Part shown: in pieces, positions 3,192 through 60,946 of the stretch
Layout of the letters: each line of letters starts with the position of its first letter
Numbering within the stretch: position 1 is the stretch's first letter
Source of the DNA: Lampris incognitus
Taxonomy: Eukaryota; Chordata; Actinopteri; Lampriformes; Lampridae
DNA: 64,000 nt
Assembly (NCBI RefSeq): GCF_029633865.1
Contig: NC_079212.1
Coordinates: forward strand, 146,097,992-146,161,991
Direction: 5' to 3'
The notes under the pieces: generated by a model
Told to the model about the DNA's origin: nothing
The model's database searches: none
What the model saw: only the letters and a program-made list of their open reading frames with translations
Translations under genes and position numbers: made by a program

Positions 3192-3817
3192 TGTAACCTA
3201 CAGAAAGACTCACTGGCTGATCGCCGGGGGGGGGGGGGGGGGGCGGTTCGACCCCCTTTAGTCGAGCGGTTAGCGTTGTCGTCTTGTGGTGCAGTTCATG
3301 CCAGATCGAATCCCGCAGCGGGCGGAAATATGCTCGGTTACATTGGTGGCAGCGGTTGGGTTCCGGAAGTGTGCGGATCCTGATAAGTCTCTTCGGAGCG
3401 CGGGAATAACGAACCGGGAGGGCGCGCTTCCGGGAGGGCAACTACTGTAACCAACCAAAAGACTCACTGGCCGATCACCAAGGGGTCGGTCCCCTTTAGT
3501 CGAGCGGTTAGTGATGTCGCCTTGTGGTGCAGTACACCCCGTATCGAATCCCGCACCGGGCAAGAAAATAACCAGTTACATTGGTGGCAGCGGTGGGATC
3601 CGGAAGTGTGCAGATCCTCAGAAGTCTCTTCGGAGCGCGGGAATAACGAACCGGGAGGGCGCGCTTCCGGGAGGGCGACTACTGTAACCAACCAAAAGAC
3701 TCACTGGCCGATCGCCAAGGGGTCGGTCCCCTTTAGTCGAGCGGTTAGTGATGTCGCCTTGTGGTGCAGATCACCCCGTATCGAATCCCGCACCGGGCAA
3801 GAAAATAACCGGTTACA
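3192..3817 (+). mobile_element. Miniature LTR element (TRIM-like), LTR-int-LTR-int-LTR
   Basis: Three LTRs (3192-3342, 3446-3580, 3683-3817) separate two short internal segments (3343-3445, 3581-3682). LTRs begin TGTAACC and end GGTTACA (or AGTTACA). Right after each LTR, one base in, comes TGGTGGCAGCGG...; the 3582-3599 copy reads TGGTGGCAGCGGTGGGAT, complementary (from memory) to the 3' end of a tRNA-Leu including CCA. Each internal segment ends in a GGGAGGG purine tract next to the following LTR. ATAG flanks both sides (3188-3191, 3818-3821). The LTR holds an A-box (TAGTCGAGCGG, 3497-3507) and a near B-box (GTATCGAATCC, 3541-3551). There is no coding capacity. The extra LTR-int unit suggests unequal recombination. 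Confidence 0.8.
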
Positions 3818-5044
3818 ATAGTTACACGTAGGGAATGCAGAACTATTACACATGGCACCTTTAAGTATTGGGGAACTCGATGCGTTGTCTTACTAACTGG
3901 ACTCTTACATGACCAATTTTTGCAGGTAAGATGTGTGATTTGTATAACGTGGATTGTAATGGAAATGAATGTTTCATAAGGGTTTTATATGACTGGTTTT
4001 TAAGTGCATGTAGCTGGTGGTGGGAGTACGTGCTGACGGTAACTGTTGTGTCAATACAGTTTTATGTGTTAATCTGCACACCTGTTAATGGGAAGGGGGA
4101 ATCTGTTCTCGTTGGCGCTTGATTCCATTAAGGCACAGGGAGAGGAGAGGCTCTTGACGCACACGCGGCCATATTGGAACGAGATGTCCCGAACCACACC
4201 GAGTACCGACCTGTGCGTTTTCAGTGACGTCACAGGAAATGACCCGTATTCCGTCCTAAATGATTTGAATCACCCGCTTTCAATTCAGCGCTTATCTTTC
4301 TCAGCATCGTAACATTAAGGTTTTATTTCTAGTAATCTACTGATTCTGTTTTTATGTGGGGCATTGGGGGTAGATTTTTGTTTCAAAGTAGTGAATGTAC
4401 ACAGTTGGTATTTGGGTTGATGAAATAAAATGGTGGATTGAATAAACCAAGGCCGTTTTGTTTTTATTTTGTTGTTTTCTCTTCTTAATGCGATTTTGTT
4501 TTCTGCTTTGAATTACATGCCGACTGTGAACCCAACTCTAACTTGGAGGCAGGATGGCGAGTTAACATCAGTTTGTCCATGTGGCAGAGCTCGTGACTCA
4601 TGATAATAAATTGCCCTGGCGAAGCGTGGCTCTGGACCCTGGGCCTTCAGTAGGACCACATGTGCCAATAAAAAAAAATCAAACAAGGCAATAAAAATAA
4701 TAGCTACAGCCCTGTCACATGGAAGTTCAGCATATTAAAGATTTATTTTTCCTGACTGGCTTCACAACACACAAAGGCGACCTTACAATCCAGCTTCTAG
4801 TATACCCCTCTGGTCAAGCGTTTTTAAAACACACTAAAATAATTTACAGAGGCCTCATTAGAACAGCAGATGTCAGCAGAAGTTGCATAATTTCAAGATA
4901 GAATGAAAACAGAGAAAACCAGCCGACTATTGAAAAAAGCTGCGTACTCACCAAATGAAGATCACTTGAAAACAAAGTCCATCCCACGATCCTTTTTTTT
5001 TTCTCTTCTTACTTTCCAATTTTCAAGTTTTTTTGGAACAGGTA
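3818..5044. other. Unassigned AT-rich sequence
   Basis: No gene recognised. AATAAA motifs near 4423-4446 on the plus strand could end an unrelated transcript. 4670-5040 may include the degraded 3' flank of the minus-strand L1 that follows. Confidence 0.3.
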
Positions 5045-10118: not shown

Positions 10119-10253
10119 TGTAAACTACTAATAAGACACGTTAGCCGCTAGCTAACGGGTCTGACCCTTTAGCCGAGCGGTTAGTGACGTCGCCTTGTGG
10201 TGCAGTACACCCCGTATCGAATCCCGCACCGGGCAAAAAAATAACCGGTTACA
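10119..10253 (+). mobile_element. Solo LTR of the TRIM-like element (Leu subfamily 1)
   Basis: 135 bp, the same length as the LTRs at 3446-3580 and 3683-3817. It starts TGTAAAC and ends CGGTTACA. The A-box TAGCCGAGCGG (10170-10180) matches the Pol III consensus, and a near B-box (GTATCGAATCC) is at 10214-10224. No clear target duplication. Confidence 0.7.
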
Positions 10254-15200: not shown

Positions 15201-18200
15201 CCGGACTGGACTGGACTCGCAGAGTGTCGTTTTCCATCACCGTAGCAGTACCCCCTAACTGTAGCTGGTCTGCACTGATTTTGGTACCCGCCCCAGGTTT
15301 TTTGGAACCTGGACAAAGGTGGTACCAGAAAAGTGGTAACAGTTACCAAAATGCCGGTGCTTTCCGGTAATGGAAAACAAAAACGGTGAGTCGAGTGGAG
15401 CCGGTACCATGTAGTGGAAAAGGGGCATGAGTGGCTTCTTCTTCTTCTGACTCCTCTGTCTAATCACCTGTTTCACACTCTGCTTGTATGACTGAAGCAC
15501 CGACACGGCTTTGTCAACAAAAAGGATCACGCATGACATGAAACCCCGAGTAGTCTGCTGCTCACTTACTTTTTAAGAAAAAGGAAGAGAAAACAAAACA
15601 AGAGGCACAAATCTTAACGCAGAACCAGAGACACCCACCTGGTTAGCGCGTTTCATCAGACTTCTGATTCGCTCCTTGTCCTCCTCCAAATGTACCTGGG
15701 TCAGTGACACCTCTGTGTCCTTGCTTCTGATTGGCTGGTCAACTGAGGAAGCTATTTCACTGTCACAAACGTTTAGCTGGGAGTCTTCCTGGGACTCATT
15801 CTCAAATATGAAGAGGTGGGCCTTGGAGGTGGATGGGACAGGTTCACTGGGCACAGGGCAATCTGTCTCAGGTAAGGGAGGATCCTCCCTGGAGGCCCGG
15901 TCCTCCGGCCCGCTGCCCCTGCCCTGACTGGGGCCTGACTCTGGGGCAGGAAATGTGGTGGCGGTTGCAACACTGATCACGGGGCTTTGTGCGTGTCTGG
16001 GCTGCTCTGCTGCAGTTTCTTCTTCGATTTGTGAGTCTGTGGTTTCACTCATATCAGCGTGATCAGACTAGGGGACAGAAACACAACGGCATCAGTTCCC
16101 TTTAAACAAGATGATGCGACACTGAACCACAGTCAAACACATTTGTATATCGCTGATGTGAATTGCTCTTCAACTGTGAGACATTATAACAGAAGAAATG
16201 TAAACAAAAGTATTAAACCAAAACAGGAAGTGGAGATAACAATAATAATAATAACAATAATAAACTTTACTTGTAGAGCAATTTTCATACAAGAGATGTA
16301 GCTCAAAGTGCTTCGCAATTAAATAAAAAATACAAAGCAACTCATAACAGGAGCAAACAGAAAGACAATAAAATGAGACAACAAAAAGACAGCAGATGAG
16401 AAACTATGTAAGTGAAAGTAAAAACAGAAACCAGTAAAAATAATAAAATACGAGACATTTAGTCAAAATAATTAATAAGAATGACATTAATTAAAAGCCA
16501 AATTAAATAAATAGGTTTTCATTCCGTGGCATCCGGGTAGCGTAGCGGTCTATTCCGTTGCCTACCGACACGGTGATCGCCAGTTCGAATCCCCGTGTTA
16601 CCTCCGGCTTGGTCGGGCATCCCTACAGACACAACCGGCCGTGTCTGCGGGTGGGAAGCCGGCTATGGGTATGTGTCCTGGTCGCTGCACTAGCACCTCC
16701 TCTGGTCGGTCGGGGCGCCTGTTCGGGGGGAGGGGGAACTGGGGGGAATAGCATGATCCTCCCACGCGCTACGCCCCCCTGGTGAAACTCCTCACCGTCA
16801 GGAGAAAAGAAGCAGCTGGCGACCCCACATGAATCGGAGGAGGCATGCTTTAGTCTGCAGCCCTCCCCTGACCAGCAGGGGGGTCGGAGCAGCGACCGGG
16901 ACGGCTCAGAAGAGTGGGGTATAATTGGCCGGATACAATTGGGAAGAAAAAACGAGAACCACCCCCCCCCCCAAAAAAAAAAGAAAAAAAGAAAAAGAAA
17001 AGAAAAGGTAAAACCCTTGACAGAGAACTGTTGAATTTGACTTTTGATTTTTTAATTTTCATATACTTTAATGATCCCCATAGGGAACTTACACTCTGCA
17101 GTTAACCCATCCTAGCTGTGTAGCTAGGAGCAGTGGGCAGCCCCCGTGCAGCAGCCGGGGACCAACTCCAGTTTGTCTTGCTATGCCTTGCTCAGGGGCA
17201 CAGACAGCAGTACTAACCCTAACACGCATGCCTTTTTGATGGTGATGGAAACCGGAGTCCCCGGAGAAAACCTACACGGGGAGAACATGCAAACTCCACA
17301 CAGAGGACGACCTGGGATGACCCCCAAGGTTAGACAACCCCGGGGTTCGAGCCCAGGACCTTCTTGCTGTGAGGCAACAGCATTAACCACTGCGCCACCG
17401 TGCTGCCCAGTTTTTTCAACCTACAATGGTCTTCTGGCCTTGTTGAGCAATGAATCAATTCCCAAAGCGTTCGTTCCTTTATCCAAGTTAACTTGGGTTC
17501 ATTTAGAAATGCATAGAAGATCACTGAAGAGTAAAGAGGAAAAATTACAGGTATTATACAATTGGAACAGGTCAAAATTACTCAAATTCTTACTTGAAGA
17601 GGACATTATAATCCTCTAGCAGGCTGTTTTCTTTAGAAAATGGTGTTTTTTGTGTAAAATAGTGGGGAACTGAATTTGTTTCCAGGTTCATTGGATAGTC
17701 CTGCTATGCTGGATATGTGCAAAATAATGGAAAGGAATTTGTAGAAAACACAACCTATCTGAAGAAATGTAGTCAGTGTAGTAACACATATTATGTATTA
17801 TTATTATTAAATGATGATGCTGGTCGCGTGGCTTGGGTCCTGGACTGCTCCGTTGGCACGTGGACATTGTTTGGCATCCTGTGCATCATGTTCTTCATAA
17901 ATTTTATGTCCATTATAATTCTGTTATCCTCTTTCAATGTTGTATTGTGTAAATTGCGTGAACACAACATCCATTGCACGCTGTCCGTCTTGGGAGAGAG
18001 ATCCCTCCTCTGGTGCTCTCCCTGACGTTTCTTCCTATTTTTTCTCCCTGTTAAAAGGTTTTTTTAGGGAGTTTTTCCTTATCCGATGAGAAGGTCTAAG
18101 GACAGGATGTTGTGTTGCTGTTAAGCCCACTGAGGCAAATTTGTGATATTGGGCTATACAAATAAAACTGATTTGATTTGATTTGATTTTGATTTGAAGA

Positions 18201-24574: not shown

Positions 24575-27528
24575 CTACAACAATATTTTTTTTCCTCAGG
24601 TTGATTTAAACCTTAATTTTTGGTAAATTCATTTTTATCAGTGATTTTGAAGTTTAGCATTACTACTGTTACTACCATAAGCATATCATTTTTCCTCTCA
24701 CTCAAAAATCCATTAAAAACGTAGAACTGCAAACAGATGTGTGACATACAAAGCAGAAGCTCCAATAACCCTTTCTTCCAACATAGGCCTACCTTATCGT
24801 CTCCCTCTGTTCTGTCCTTCATTTGTCTGTCGGCTAGCTTCTTTTTGTAGCGGCACTTCATCGACTGCCAGCTGTGAGGGGTTACATGCTTCTTCTCCAT
24901 CTCCTTCCACACACCATCTCCCCGGATGTCCTCTTTGAGCATGGAGATGTAGCTCAAAATGGCTTCATCTTCCTCTGGGGTGTAGTTTAACCGGCCTTGT
25001 TGGTAAAGAAAAAGTCTAAATATCCATAGATTTAGGTTGTCGAAAATTCTAAACTAGTGTGTAAATGTTATGAAATTGATATAACGAATAACACAAACAT
25101 TAATAGATGTTTACATTAGTTGAAACACACTTCCTCAGTCTGTATACGATCCAAGGACAGGAGCAATGAAAAAATAAGAACAATACAAAATACATGTGCA
25201 CGTGAAGTGTGAAAACCTTAATAGTTTAAGTCATAGCCAACCTGTTAAGGTATATATGCTGGTATTTCGTCTGCGAGATGGACCGGGAATGTTTTCAGGA
25301 CTCAACCGGTAGTCCTCCACATCCAGCTGAACATTCTTCTCTATACAGTCCCGGATGTACTGGGTCGACACATACCTGGGAACAAAAAAGATGATGTTGT
25401 TCGTAGTCACAGTAGTAAATAATGCCATGGCCACTAGTAAATGGTACATTAATGTCCTTTGTGCATTTTATTTTGAGCAACTTTCTTGTCTAAAAATAAA
25501 GAGCTATAAAATGTGCTTGTTGTATAGAAAAAAGGCCTACTATCAACTACAAATAGAATTATTCCACTGAATGCTCAGGTGAATAAAGCTTTAGAATCTA
25601 ATGCAATATATTCTAAGGCTTAAGCAATAACATCTAATACAGCATCTGCTGAGCTATGTGGATGTACTAAGCATACCAATGAATGAATGGATGGGTGATT
25701 TATTTCGAACATGTAAATAAGCAGGATATCACATACAGATAAGCCATTGCCAATAACCTGAAGTGAACAACAAGTCCACAGATCAAACTCAGCAAACAAG
25801 TCTCCGTACACACCAGATTATTTGTTACAGGTTGGAAAAGCAGGAGGAGGAAGTGTACACTTATTTTGTCCTACCCCTTCTCACCTACTCTTACATTAAT
25901 TCAGCCACTATACATTTCAAACTCAATTCCCACTGTACTGTGTAGTTCACACTCAATGCAAGTTGTGCTGCACAATACAAACTCAACTACTGTGGACAAT
26001 AAGGGAAAAACACAAGAGATAGAGGACAAAAAAAGAAGAAAAGAAAAACACATCCTAATGCCATAAACAGATCTCAGTGCTAGGTACAACCCAAATATCT
26101 ACTCTGTGTCCTAGGAAAAAAAAAATTAATACGAAATGTTTAGAGATGGGCGTCCGGGTAGCGTAGCGGTCTATTCCGTTGCCTACCAACATGGAGATCG
26201 GTGGTTTGAATCCCCGTGTTACCTCCGGCTTGGTCGGGCGTCCCTACAGAAACAATTGACCGTGTCTGTGGGTGGGAAGCCGGATGTGGGTATGCCGTGG
26301 TTGCTGCAATAGTGCCTCTTCTGGTCGGTCAGGGCACCTGTTCAGGGGAAGGGGGAACTGGGGGGATAGCGTGATCCACCCACGCGCTACGTCCCCCTGG
26401 TGAAACTCCACAGTGTCAGGTCAAAAGAAGCGGCTGGTGACTCCACATGTATCAGAGGAGGCATGTGGTAGTCTGCAGCCCTCCCCCGATCGGCAGAAGG
26501 GGTGGAGCAGAGACCGGGAGCACTCGCAAGAGTGGGGTAATTGGCCGGATACAAATGGGGAGAAAAAGGGGGGGAACCCCCCCCCAAGGGATGTTTAGAA
26601 ATAAATAAAACTTAATCATCCCTGTATGTCTTGATACTCAGACCTTTGTAGTTCTTCTTGAGCTGTGTAATGTTTGTACTTTCAGTTCCATGCTCACACT
26701 GTTCCAGTTTTACCCCACAGATTGAAATGCCCATGCCCTTCAAAGTTGTACCAACACAAGTTTAATTTCCCTCTCAAATTATATTCCTCTTCTCTATCTC
26801 AGAATATTTTTTGTATATTCCTCGGTAGTAGATTGTATCTTGAATTATTTGTGCTGTGTTAAATTCTACTAAATCCCTGAACTTCAAGGCACCTGACTTT
26901 AAAAACAGCTTGTTGGTGTGTTCACCATATCCTGCATTAGCAACTATCCTTATGGCTCGTTTTTGTAGTCTACATAATGGTTGTAGGTTCTCATGACTGC
27001 AACGCTCCTTGCCAGCTTTGCTCGCACATATGTTACGTGAGGCCTCCAGGAGATTTTGTGGTCTAGCATCACACCTAGGAATTTATTTTCATACAGTGTC
27101 TATCACTACTTTTACTTTGGTGTTTATTCTATAATTTCCAAACAACATAAACTTTGTTTTGTCCAGATTTAATGACAATTTGTTTTTGTCAAACCACCGT
27201 TTTAATTTTTCCATTTCTACTGTGGTCCCCTCCAAAAGCTGCTGTAACTTCTCACCAGAACAATAATGCAGAGGGAGAAAAAGGTGGCTTCAGCATATCA
27301 GCTCCGTCACGCCTCTGGGCGCACGCGCTTCCGATGACCTCACGGTCTCACCATCCCACTTCTGACACCAATGCAGCGAATTCGGGGGGCAGCCCGGCTG
27401 GACGTCACAGCCGGGACACGAACTTGGATTTCCCGCAGCGCGGGCGACGTCGTTAACCAGTCGATCAAAGGGTCCGACCCGTTAGCCAAGGGCTACCGAG
27501 CCTATTCATCCGTGATCGTGTCTCTCTC

Positions 27529-43505: not shown

Positions 43506-44086
43506 TACAATAATAATAATAAACATTACATCTTTATAGCGCTTTTCTAGACACCCAAAGCGCTTCACATTGAAGGGTGTAACTCACATGTGTAGCACCA
43601 CCTGGGTGGTGCACGGCAGCCATTTTGCACCAGAACGCTCACCACACATCAGCTTGAGGTGCAGAGGGAGGAACCCTTGAGCCAGTGACATGGGGGGATG
43701 ATTAGGTGGCCAGATGGCGAGAGCCAGGTTGGGTATTTTGCCAGGACACCGGGAAACCCCCTACTCTTTGTGATAAGTGCCATGGGATCTTTAACACAGT
43801 GAGTCAGGACCTCGGTTTAACGTCTCATCCGAAGGATGGCATCGCCTACAGCACAATCTCCCCGTCATTGCACTGGGATTTGATATTTGTTGTTTTTATT
43901 AGGACCAAAGGGAAGGCTGCCCCTACTGGCCCACCAACACCACTTCCGGTAGCAACTCAGTTTTCCCAGGTGGTCTCCCATCCAAGTTCCAGCCAAGCCC
44001 ATACCTGCTTAGCTTCCGTCATTTGGTAGAGACAGGGTACATGTTGGTATGGCTGCCGGCAATAGCTAAGGTTGCTACCTAAGGTG
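43506..44086 (-). mobile_element. SINE3 (5S rRNA-derived SINE), complete copy
   Basis: On the minus strand the head (44086-43960) reads as a diverged 5S rRNA: GGAAGCTAAGCAGGTATGGG, then GGAACTTGGATGGGAGACCA and CCTGGGAAAA. These are the conserved 5S internal-promoter and 3' regions. The body and tail (AAAGCGCTATAAAGATGTAA, (TTA)n) follow. Not a functional 5S gene. It sits in the L2 element. Confidence 0.88.
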
Positions 44087-47390: not shown

Positions 47391-47542
47391 TATGGAGCGA
47401 ACTCAGGGGGCAGCCGGGAACCGCCGGATCCGGGACGCGAACCCGGGTCGCCCGCACCACAGGCTACTGCGCTAACCGGTCGGCTAAAGGGTCCGACCCG
47501 TTAGCTAAGGGCTAGTGATTCTACTCATCCATGATCGCTACA
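47391..47542 (-). mobile_element. Solo LTR of TRIM-like element (subfamily 2)
   Basis: Minus strand begins TGTAGCGATCATGGATGAGT, contains GGGTCGGACCCTTTAGCCGA and CCGGGTTCGCGTCCCGG (B-box-like T-arm), and ends near GAGTTCGCT. The terminal CTACA is mutated. About 150 bp. Confidence 0.65.
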
Positions 47543-48829: not shown

Positions 48830-48946
48830 TGTACCGACCACGGATGACTAGACTCACTAGCCCTCGGCTAACGGGTCGGACCCTTTAGTCGCCCGTGGTG
48901 CGGGAGACCCGGGTTCACGCCCCGGCTGCCCCCCGAATTCGCTACA
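48830..48946 (+). mobile_element. Solo LTR of TRIM-like element, internally deleted
   Basis: 117 bp from TGTACCGACCACGGATGACT to AATTCGCTACA, including GGGTCGGACCCTTTAGTCG and ACCCGGGTTCACGCCCCGG. The D-arm-like part after the A-box is deleted. Flanks ACAG/ATAG match at 3 of 4 positions. Confidence 0.7.
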
Positions 48947-56742: not shown

Positions 56743-56888
56743 AGTAACCCAGCACATTTCCGCCCGCTGCGGGATTCGATCCGGCGTTGTGCTGCCCCAC
56801 GAGGCGACGTCGCTAGCCGCCCGACTAGAGGGGCCACCCCCCCCGGCGACCCCCCCGGCGACCGGCCTGCGAGTCTTTGCAGGTTACA
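56743..56888 (-). mobile_element. Solo LTR of TRIM-like element (subfamily 1)
   Basis: Minus strand TGTAACCTGCAAAGACTC to GGAAATGTGCTGGGTTAC, closest to the LTR at 3192-3342 (shared GCGGGCGGAAAT and GATCGAATCCCGCAGCGGG). GC-rich, with a duplicated GGTCGCCGGGGGGG. The final CA is lost and no TSD is seen. Confidence 0.65.
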
Positions 56889-59745: not shown

Positions 59746-60235
59746 ACACGCTGCTTAACCACGCCTCCAATCACCTCTCAACGAAAACCAGTCCAAGCAC
59801 GGAGGAAAAGGATGGGAAAGGCAACTATAACCCCGTCACTTCTAACAATGTGTATGTCGACGTGTCCTAGACCGAGTTAATCTGCACGTGGAGCTCAGGT
59901 TCTCCACCTGCAAACACAATCTTTATTAATTATCAAGAACCGCTGATAATAACGCCGTCCTCTGGATGATCTGTGGGGTGACGAGCCCAGCGTTTTTGTT
60001 ACACAATGATAGCCTCCATCTGTCCCCCTCCTCACCATGTTCCATATTCCTTTTTTTCTTTTGACTTTTCATTGATTTGTGTTGTATCAAAGTTTAGGTG
60101 GTGTTCAGTGGGACGGGACATGATGCACTGCTAGGAATCCTGGTCTGTAGCGCTCATTTAAACAAAACAACTTGCCTGCTTTCCAGCCATCTACGGAAAC
60201 GCAGTCGGCTCCCCAAGACCAAATCTAGCTGTCAC

Positions 60236-60610
60236 TGTAACGACCACGGATTGGTAGACCTCGCTAGCCCTTGGCTAACGAGTCGGGCCCTTTAGTCGAC
60301 TGGCTAACGTAGTCGTTCGGGTTCTCGTCCCGGCTGCGGCGGTCCCCGGCTACCCCCTGAATTCTCGCTACATGGGTGCCAGAAGTGGGATGGTGAGGCC
60401 ATCAAAGCACGTGCGTCCAGAGGCTTGAGGGACCTGGTATGCTGGGAGGGGGCTAGTGTAATGACCACGAATGAGTAGAGTCGCTAGCCCTTAGCTAACG
60501 GGTCGGACCCTTTAGTCGACTGGTTAACGTAGTCGCCCGTGGTGCGGGCGGGCAGGCCGGATTCGCGTCCCGGCTGCAGCAGTTCCCGGTTGCCCCCTAA
60601 ATTTGCTACA
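60236..60610 (+). mobile_element. Miniature LTR element (TRIM-like), complete, 375 bp
   Basis: 5' LTR 60236-60372 (TGTAACGACCACGG to CTCGCTACA). Primer site TGGGTGCCAGAAGTGGGAT at 60373-60391. Internal segment of 84 bp ends in polypurine GGGAGGGGG (60444-60452) and CTAG. 3' LTR 60457-60610 (TGTAATGACCACG to TTTGCTACA). TCAC flanks both sides (60232-60235, 60611-60614). In the 3' LTR a perfect anticodon-arm-like hairpin CGCCC-GTGGTGC-GGGCG (60534-60550) lies between an A-box-like TAGTCGACTGG (60513-60523) and a B-box-like GGATTCGCGTCC (60559-60570). No coding capacity. Confidence 0.82.
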
Positions 60611-60946
60611 TCACAAACACATAGGCCGTCAAAAATGTGTTTCACTGTGGTCAATGAAAAGGGTGACTTCTTAGGCTCATGGCTATCTGCCACTAATGGC
60701 TGCTTTCATTTTGGAACACCACCCCTCAGAGAATTCAACAAGCCCATGTTAAAAATCTGAATAAAATTTTATGACTTGGAATGAAAACCTTTTTTTCCCG
60801 CAGTAAAGCTCAACAAATAAGACGTAGTACATCCAGTTCAGGGCAGACCGCCGAGGTGTTTTCTGTGTAAACATATTTTAAACTGTATTTGACTCAGTGG
60901 CAGGTGAGTCATTTCAACAACGGCAAATCTCCCTCTCCCCCTTTAA

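Follow-up and report, generated by a model that had tools for sequence, protein, structure and literature searches.

Results

A miniature LTR element and its relatives in the window

The window, by which we mean the whole 64,000-nt stretch of DNA analysed here, comes from the opah Lampris incognitus, a lampriform of the Acanthomorphata. Its host sequence includes exons of TERF2IP (Rap1) for the Myb and C-terminal domains (11864-33002, minus strand). Peptides of these exons, joined into one query, found their best match in an L. incognitus protein (87% over the query), eight stretches of which match the window at 89-100%. A 5S rRNA match of 53.2 bits (43944-44060, minus strand) may be a gene, a pseudogene or a 5S-derived SINE.

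At 60236-60610, a sequence-only reading had described a complete 375-bp LTR element with TCAC on both flanks and 84 bp between its LTRs, and these coordinates proved exact (Table 1). The two LTRs match each other at BLAST E values of 6e-23 to 6e-24. The primer-site-like sequence noticed directly after the 5′ LTR is of the tRNA-Leu type, with a 17-nt stretch matching a tRNA-Leu 3′ end at 94%, and the purine tract before the 3′ LTR was confirmed as well. No open frame of at least 130 codons lies within the element. The LTR pair shows 20 mismatches over 134 ungapped columns (K2P 0.173), and the insertion is therefore old. This is a genuine, very short mobile element, one among many copies in the opah genome.

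Table 1. Positions of the element, its parts and related copies within the window
Feature	Position	Strand	Remarks
Left target-site duplication, TCAC	60232..60235	+	
5′ LTR, A family, TGTAAC...GCTACA, 137 bp	60236..60372	+	without anticodon-like hairpin
Box-A-like sequence TAGTCGACTGG, 5′ LTR	60293..60303	+	
Internal domain, 84 bp	60373..60456	+	
Primer site, tRNA-Leu type	60374..60391	+	16/18 against a tRNA-Leu 3′ end
Polypurine tract GGGAGGGGG	60444..60452	+	same position in other copies
3′ LTR, A family, 154 bp	60457..60610	+	
Box-A-like sequence TAGTCGACTGG, 3′ LTR	60513..60523	+	
Anticodon-like hairpin CGCCC-GTGGTGC-GGGCG, 3′ LTR	60534..60550	+	not conserved over 45 LTRs
Box-B-like sequence GATTCGCGTCC, 3′ LTR	60560..60570	+	
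Right target-site duplication, TCAC	60611..60614	+	
A-family LTR and 5′ part of internal domain, truncated copy	27291..27521	-	primer site 18/18 to a tRNA-Leu 3′ end
A-family solo LTR	47392..47542	-	
A-family solo LTR, deletion between boxes	48830..48946	+	
B-family tandem copy, LTR-int-LTR-int-LTR	3192..3817	+	LTRs 3192-3342, 3446-3580, 3683-3817; internal domains 103 and 102 bp
B-family solo LTR	10119..10253	+	
B-like diverged solo LTR	56743..56885	-	

A profile search of the window found 8 LTR stretches beyond the two of this element; the profile was itself built from nine LTR stretches, which included 7 of the 8 extra matches and not the one at 56743-56885. A core pattern drawn from the window copies matched 9 times in the window and never in 100 shuffles, and had no match in the viral contig set and the genome contig set that were scanned. 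A chance repeat was rejected on these shuffles and on a BLAST E value of 2e-23. The B-family tandem copy has ATAG on both flanks and is crossed by a 144-codon open frame (3387-3821) that has no Pfam match.

Two families of short copies across the genome

A genome search with 60236-60610 gave 3664 first-look candidates, a number not to be taken for verified copies, and the 40 that were scored yielded 49 matches. In the A-locus sample of 40 loci (L001, L009-L047), a chain of at least two LTRs was present at every locus, with 9 single LTRs besides in total. There were 34 chains with two LTRs and six with three or more, the five LTRs of L032 being partly overlapping matches. The comparison with terminal-repeat retrotransposons in miniature (TRIMs) drawn in the sequence-only reading thus holds, with true LTR boundaries. 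Arrays of three or four LTRs in series were seen at L014, L019, L022, L035 and L036, as in Cassandra and the zebrafish element LTR-11_DR.

The A internal domains measured 63-114 bp (median 95; 48 values, two overlapping L032 values left out), and complete two-LTR copies were 315-414 bp long (n=25). An exact 4-bp target duplication flanked 9 of 27 complete A chains at their profile-anchored ends, against 0.62 expected from pairing the left flank of one locus with the right flank of another, while exact duplications of 5 bp (0/27) or 6 bp were absent. The remaining 18 chains showed no exact duplication at the anchored ends. One scored miss, L013, had its end shifted by the profile; by eye ATAC flanks it left and right, and a single ATAC is found at the empty site in L035. 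LTR-LTR K2P distances in the A family ranged from 0.12 to 0.29 (21 loci).

A second search, with the window's B tandem copy, gave 3039 candidates, of which 40 were scored, with 46 matches. The B sample (40 loci: L048, L050-L088) consists of best matches and is possibly biased; it held 42 chains, 36 with two LTRs and 6 with three, plus 4 single LTRs. Exact 4-bp duplications flanked 23 of 35 complete chains (null 1.18), an exact 5-bp duplication 1 of 35, and a 6-bp duplication none. The internal domains were 91-108 bp (48 internals) and complete two-LTR copies 370-378 bp (n=31). The median LTR K2P distance was 0.047 (range 0.023-0.206; 18 complete chains of 21 loci), and B therefore looks like a sister family younger than A. 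The two families share the upstream hairpins, box A, box B and the sequence between them, and differ over much of their LTR ends. NTAN accounts for 17 of the 23 exact B duplications, compared with 6% in flanks. The surroundings of the B insertions (L048, L050-L088) are A/T-rich.

When flank pairs were joined and compared with other sequence at hand, 4 of 62 aligned across the junction as empty sites. L088 is a B copy within an A element, for which A copies serve as empty sites; the B copy L072 has empty sites near 18009-18170 of the window and in L037; and the A copies L013 and L011 sit in a repeat also present in L035, although L011 is not clean. The empty sites seen carry one target copy.

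The genome-wide search that had been proposed as a check returned many copies with 4-bp duplications, together with single LTRs. LTRs chained at all A loci, the excess of 4-bp duplications in both families and the empty sites together indicate a mobilised TRIM. Its layout is that of a TRIM: two LTRs, mostly of 130-155 bp, enclose about 63-114 bp with a tRNA-Leu primer site and a purine tract, the whole being shorter than 1000 bp, without coding capacity and with a fixed 4-bp duplication. Primer site and tract were present in 37 A copies (the tract recognisable in most, not all) and in 21 B chains. The internal domain is too short to code for a helper; mobilisation is therefore in trans, in line with the earlier suggestion that another element moves it. 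We regard the element as very probably a TRIM of the Helenus kind, discussed below, moved in trans.

Two other origins were weighed against these data. The short copies could be internal deletions of one coding Gypsy family that owns these LTRs. The Leu primer site and the 4-bp duplication are Gypsy-like signs, and a whole-element query favours short copies, so that coding copies would rank low. Against this stand two families of narrow internal length on many contigs, lying between different target duplications, from which it follows that the short form itself moves; at the 80 A and B loci, moreover, the LTRs are spaced by a short internal domain, a comparison of LTR spacing rather than of coding content in the flanks. 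We consider the deletion origin very unlikely. A tRNA-derived SINE, or a tRNA pseudogene in tandem, would account for tRNA-like boxes and for the tandem copies that do exist, but not for TG...CA ends, a primer site, a purine tract, fixed 4-bp duplications and solo LTRs. We give it almost no chance, and count it as refuted by the target duplications and the primer site.

A probable tRNA-like promoter remnant in the LTRs

Part of the tRNA-like module proposed for the LTRs is conserved. With up to 2 mismatches per box and a distance of 35-59 nt between them, boxes A and B were found in 61 of 70 near-complete A LTRs, compared with 7.6% of shuffles. The two boxes of L009 lie 43 nt apart by eye, close to the spacing in tRNA genes; the script's leftmost best pair gave 43 nt in 11 of 70 LTRs, with other values arising from tied sites. 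The cloverleaf stems are not conserved. In an alignment of 45 LTRs, pairing was kept in 64% of cells for the anticodon-like stem and in 66% for the T-arm stem; for the upstream hairpins the figures were 88% and 93%. The 5′ LTR of the element at 60236-60610 has a 20-column gap at the place of the anticodon-like hairpin, so that its tRNA-like module is complete in the 3′ LTR only. Over the whole structure, cells changed on both sides (27 vs 14.1) and the covariation score exceeded all 500 shuffles, while pairs and pair types did not; no claim here rests on covariation.

We also compared LTR cores with ten tRNAs, and 10 of 12 LTRs scored above all 200 shuffles. For the B core the best match in 6 of 6 LTRs was tRNA-His, in an alignment of about 50 nt, with no shuffle of 200 as high. 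The A core aligns over about 23-27 nt with tRNA-Asp/Gly, again the best match in 6 of 6; four had no shuffle as high, and two had 1 and 6 of 200.

The tRNA-like fold did not pass a direct check. An Rfam scan of 60236-60610 returned no tRNA up to E = 10, and over 20 loci the Rfam tRNA model gave one sub-threshold match, L012, at 23.1 bits (cut-off 29). ARAGORN called no tRNA in the window and none in 21 LTR loci, whereas all 13 control tRNA loci received a call; it misses or misnames the intron-bearing tRNA-Leu genes L120 and L121. It did report a tRNA-Thr within L124, in a stretch of A LTR that is rearranged, and at lowered thresholds over 80 loci it made 3 calls at 95% and 13 at 90%, figures that come without a shuffled control. 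A tRNA gene or pseudogene was rejected on the lack of any Rfam tRNA above cut-off in the LTRs and of ARAGORN calls in the window and the 21 loci. Rfam scans of the element and the window gave no 5S match in these LTRs either. With the boxes conserved and the cloverleaf stems not, the module is likely a promoter-like remnant rather than a tRNA.

Judging from the boxes, these TRIMs are somewhat more probably than otherwise transcribed by RNA polymerase III (Pol III). The competing view, to which we give roughly a third of our credence or slightly less, takes the boxes as idle inherited relics and assigns transcription of the TRIM to RNA polymerase II, as in ordinary TRIMs. It gains from the decayed cloverleaf stems and from the covariance models, which find no tRNA above cut-off. 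Nor is there a Pol III terminator where Pol III transcription would place it, and a Pol III transcript would have to read through the 5′ LTR yet terminate in the 3′ one, for which this reading offers no account. None of 25 A elements contains TTTT, for which shuffles average 12.2, but AAAA, expected 7.5 times, is missing just as completely; the absence is therefore not specific to Pol III read-through, and we withdrew it as a Pol III sign. What weighs against idle boxes is that their frequency is far above that in shuffles, and that the hairpins-box A-box B stretch is the part common to A and B, the LTR ends being largely different.

Primer sites and copies that extend into tRNA-Leu

The tRNA-Leu 3′ ends used as primer-site references are also present in opah tRNA-Leu genes. 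In 19 of 37 A copies the 18 nt that follow the LTR are identical to the 3′ end of tRNA-Leu (CAA/CAG type), and at least 16 of 18 positions agree in 33 of 37. The best counts for other primer words in A copies were 16 (Leu-AAG type), 14 (Lys), 13 (His) and 12 (Pro). B copies carry a primer site of the Leu-AAG type. The A family seems to prime with tRNA-Leu-CAG and the B family with tRNA-Leu-AAG.

The tRNA-Leu 3′-end pattern occurs at 48 places in the genome, and a reversed control at 0. Twelve fit a canonical tRNA-Leu gene, 21 are directly followed by CCA, and 15 are other places, several of them clustered tRNA-Leu variants and some of them fused to an unrelated stretch. Fourteen of the 21 CCA places, all at different loci, have the primer site immediately preceded by the 3′ end of an LTR of family A or B (L122, L123, L127, L133, L135, L138, L139, L140, L143, L145, L146, L147, L152, L160). 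Here the identity to tRNA-Leu extends 23-62 nt from the tRNA 3′ end, whereas a normal primer site comprises 15 nt plus CCA. The best match was a Leu-CAG gene (L155) at 7 of the 11 loci with an A LTR and a Leu-CAA gene (L120) at the other 4, whose tRNA stretch is only 23-26 nt long; at all 3 loci with a B LTR it was the Leu-AAG gene (L161). Ties went to the first gene listed, and the anticodons of L155 and L161 were read by eye. Eight of the 14 are head-to-head, in the order LTR, tRNA-Leu stretch, inverted LTR (L133, L140, L143, L145, L146, L147, L152, L160); L146 and L147 look like one duplicated event. Such tRNA-Leu stretches, beyond what a primer site needs, are the least expected part of our findings.

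Several further loci border on this set. L137, a CCA place, has an ending like a B LTR and no profile match, and at L124 and the second L160 place LTR stretches lie close by, not directly before the primer site. At L144, L150, L151 and L156, tRNA-Leu 3′ parts of 27-40 nt with CCA adjoin non-TRIM sequence, which ends in ACA at three of them; these neighbours are possibly LTR ends of other, perhaps helper, elements. L119, L125 and L126 have a non-TRIM stretch in common that is joined to the 3′ half of a tRNA-Leu; two isoacceptor types are represented, and CCA is lacking. B internal domains (window 3581-3682; L152) hold a AGTCTCTTCGG-like sequence resembling the tRNA-Leu-AAG variable arm, and in L152 the switch into tRNA falls at that word.

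The simplest reading of the 14 loci would be that reverse transcription copied the primer tRNA beyond position 58; assembly error or gene conversion may instead have produced them. Among the literature matches listed, as judged by titles and abstract openings, nothing was on point for primer-tRNA read-through in genomic LTR copies. A fuller account, which we offer as a long shot, would have two Helenus families of one fish sharing an LTR core and using different tRNA-Leu isoacceptors as primers, with reverse transcription sometimes passing the usual 18-nt stop. Inherited copies with as many as 62 nt of tRNA-Leu would result, many of them in a head-to-head LTR-tRNA-LTR arrangement. If true, such primer capture would let tRNA sequence enter LTR elements and might, alongside SINE insertion, give rise to LTRs that bear tRNA sequence. 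The module in the present LTRs is nearer to tRNA-His or tRNA-Asp/Gly than to tRNA-Leu, which counts against primer capture as its own origin.

Discussion

We propose that RNA of these elements would start in the 5′ LTR, probably from the tRNA-like box A/box B promoter by Pol III, and would be packaged and reverse transcribed by the proteins of an autonomous LTR retrotransposon, probably of the Ty3/Gypsy type. First-strand synthesis would be primed by a tRNA-Leu and second-strand synthesis by the purine tract, and integration would fall to the integrase of the helper, with NTAN targets favoured in family B. A point against this account is that a genome search with the internal domain, which gave 40 matches, led to no coding helper around the minority whose surroundings were viewed. 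As two related families, one older than the other, with cleanly preserved duplications, a bias in target choice and fossil traces of their primers, the opah TRIMs make helper dependence, promoter use and primer choice testable by sequence.

With these findings an acanthomorph fish joins the hosts of TRIMs whose LTRs are tRNA-like and possibly driven by Pol III. Ordinary TRIM/SMART elements resemble the opah TRIM in layout and in mobilisation in trans, but have no small-RNA promoter in the LTR. Cassandra differs from it in being a plant family with 5S rRNA in the LTR, and its target duplications are 5 bp. The two are alike as TRIMs with a Pol III promoter in the LTR (putative in opah) and in forming tandem arrays (PMC7215508). 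Ajax likewise has a small-RNA-gene promoter in the LTR and a tRNA-Leu primer, but is described as 5S rRNA-derived, from nemerteans and with a 5-bp duplication (PMC10886601). In a survey of about 100 teleost genomes, a congener, Lampris guttatus, is given the highest LTR-retrotransposon content (7.4%; PMC10546739).

The closest system is Helenus, the name given in 2024 to TRIMs with tRNA-derived LTRs (Kojima 2024, PMC10886601). The sequence-only reading had known of no described fish family of this sort, a view that has to be given up, since Helenus was published with fish included and the kind was therefore already known. Among the matches listed, a set with most subscription papers and the Repbase reports outside it, the names Helenus, LTR-11_DR and LTR1_LCh were found in PMC10886601 only; TRIMp3 led to the same paper, other matches being unrelated by title. 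As described there, Helenus and the opah TRIM are alike in having LTRs that contain a tRNA-like stretch with both boxes, a primer site and a purine tract besides, in the 4-bp duplication (in animals) and tRNA-Leu among vertebrate primers, and in tandem copies (zebrafish LTR-11_DR) and a mostly non-functional tRNA. Pol III transcription is expected and unvalidated in that paper also. On these described features, the opah TRIM can with high confidence be assigned to Helenus. The vertebrate hosts in Table 1 of PMC10886601 are coelacanth, sturgeon and paddlefish (Acipenseriformes), and zebrafish and other Ostariophysi, whereas the opah is a lampriform acanthomorph, of which that table lists none. 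What is new is thus not the kind itself but Helenus-type families in the opah, a member of a fish order outside the published host list.
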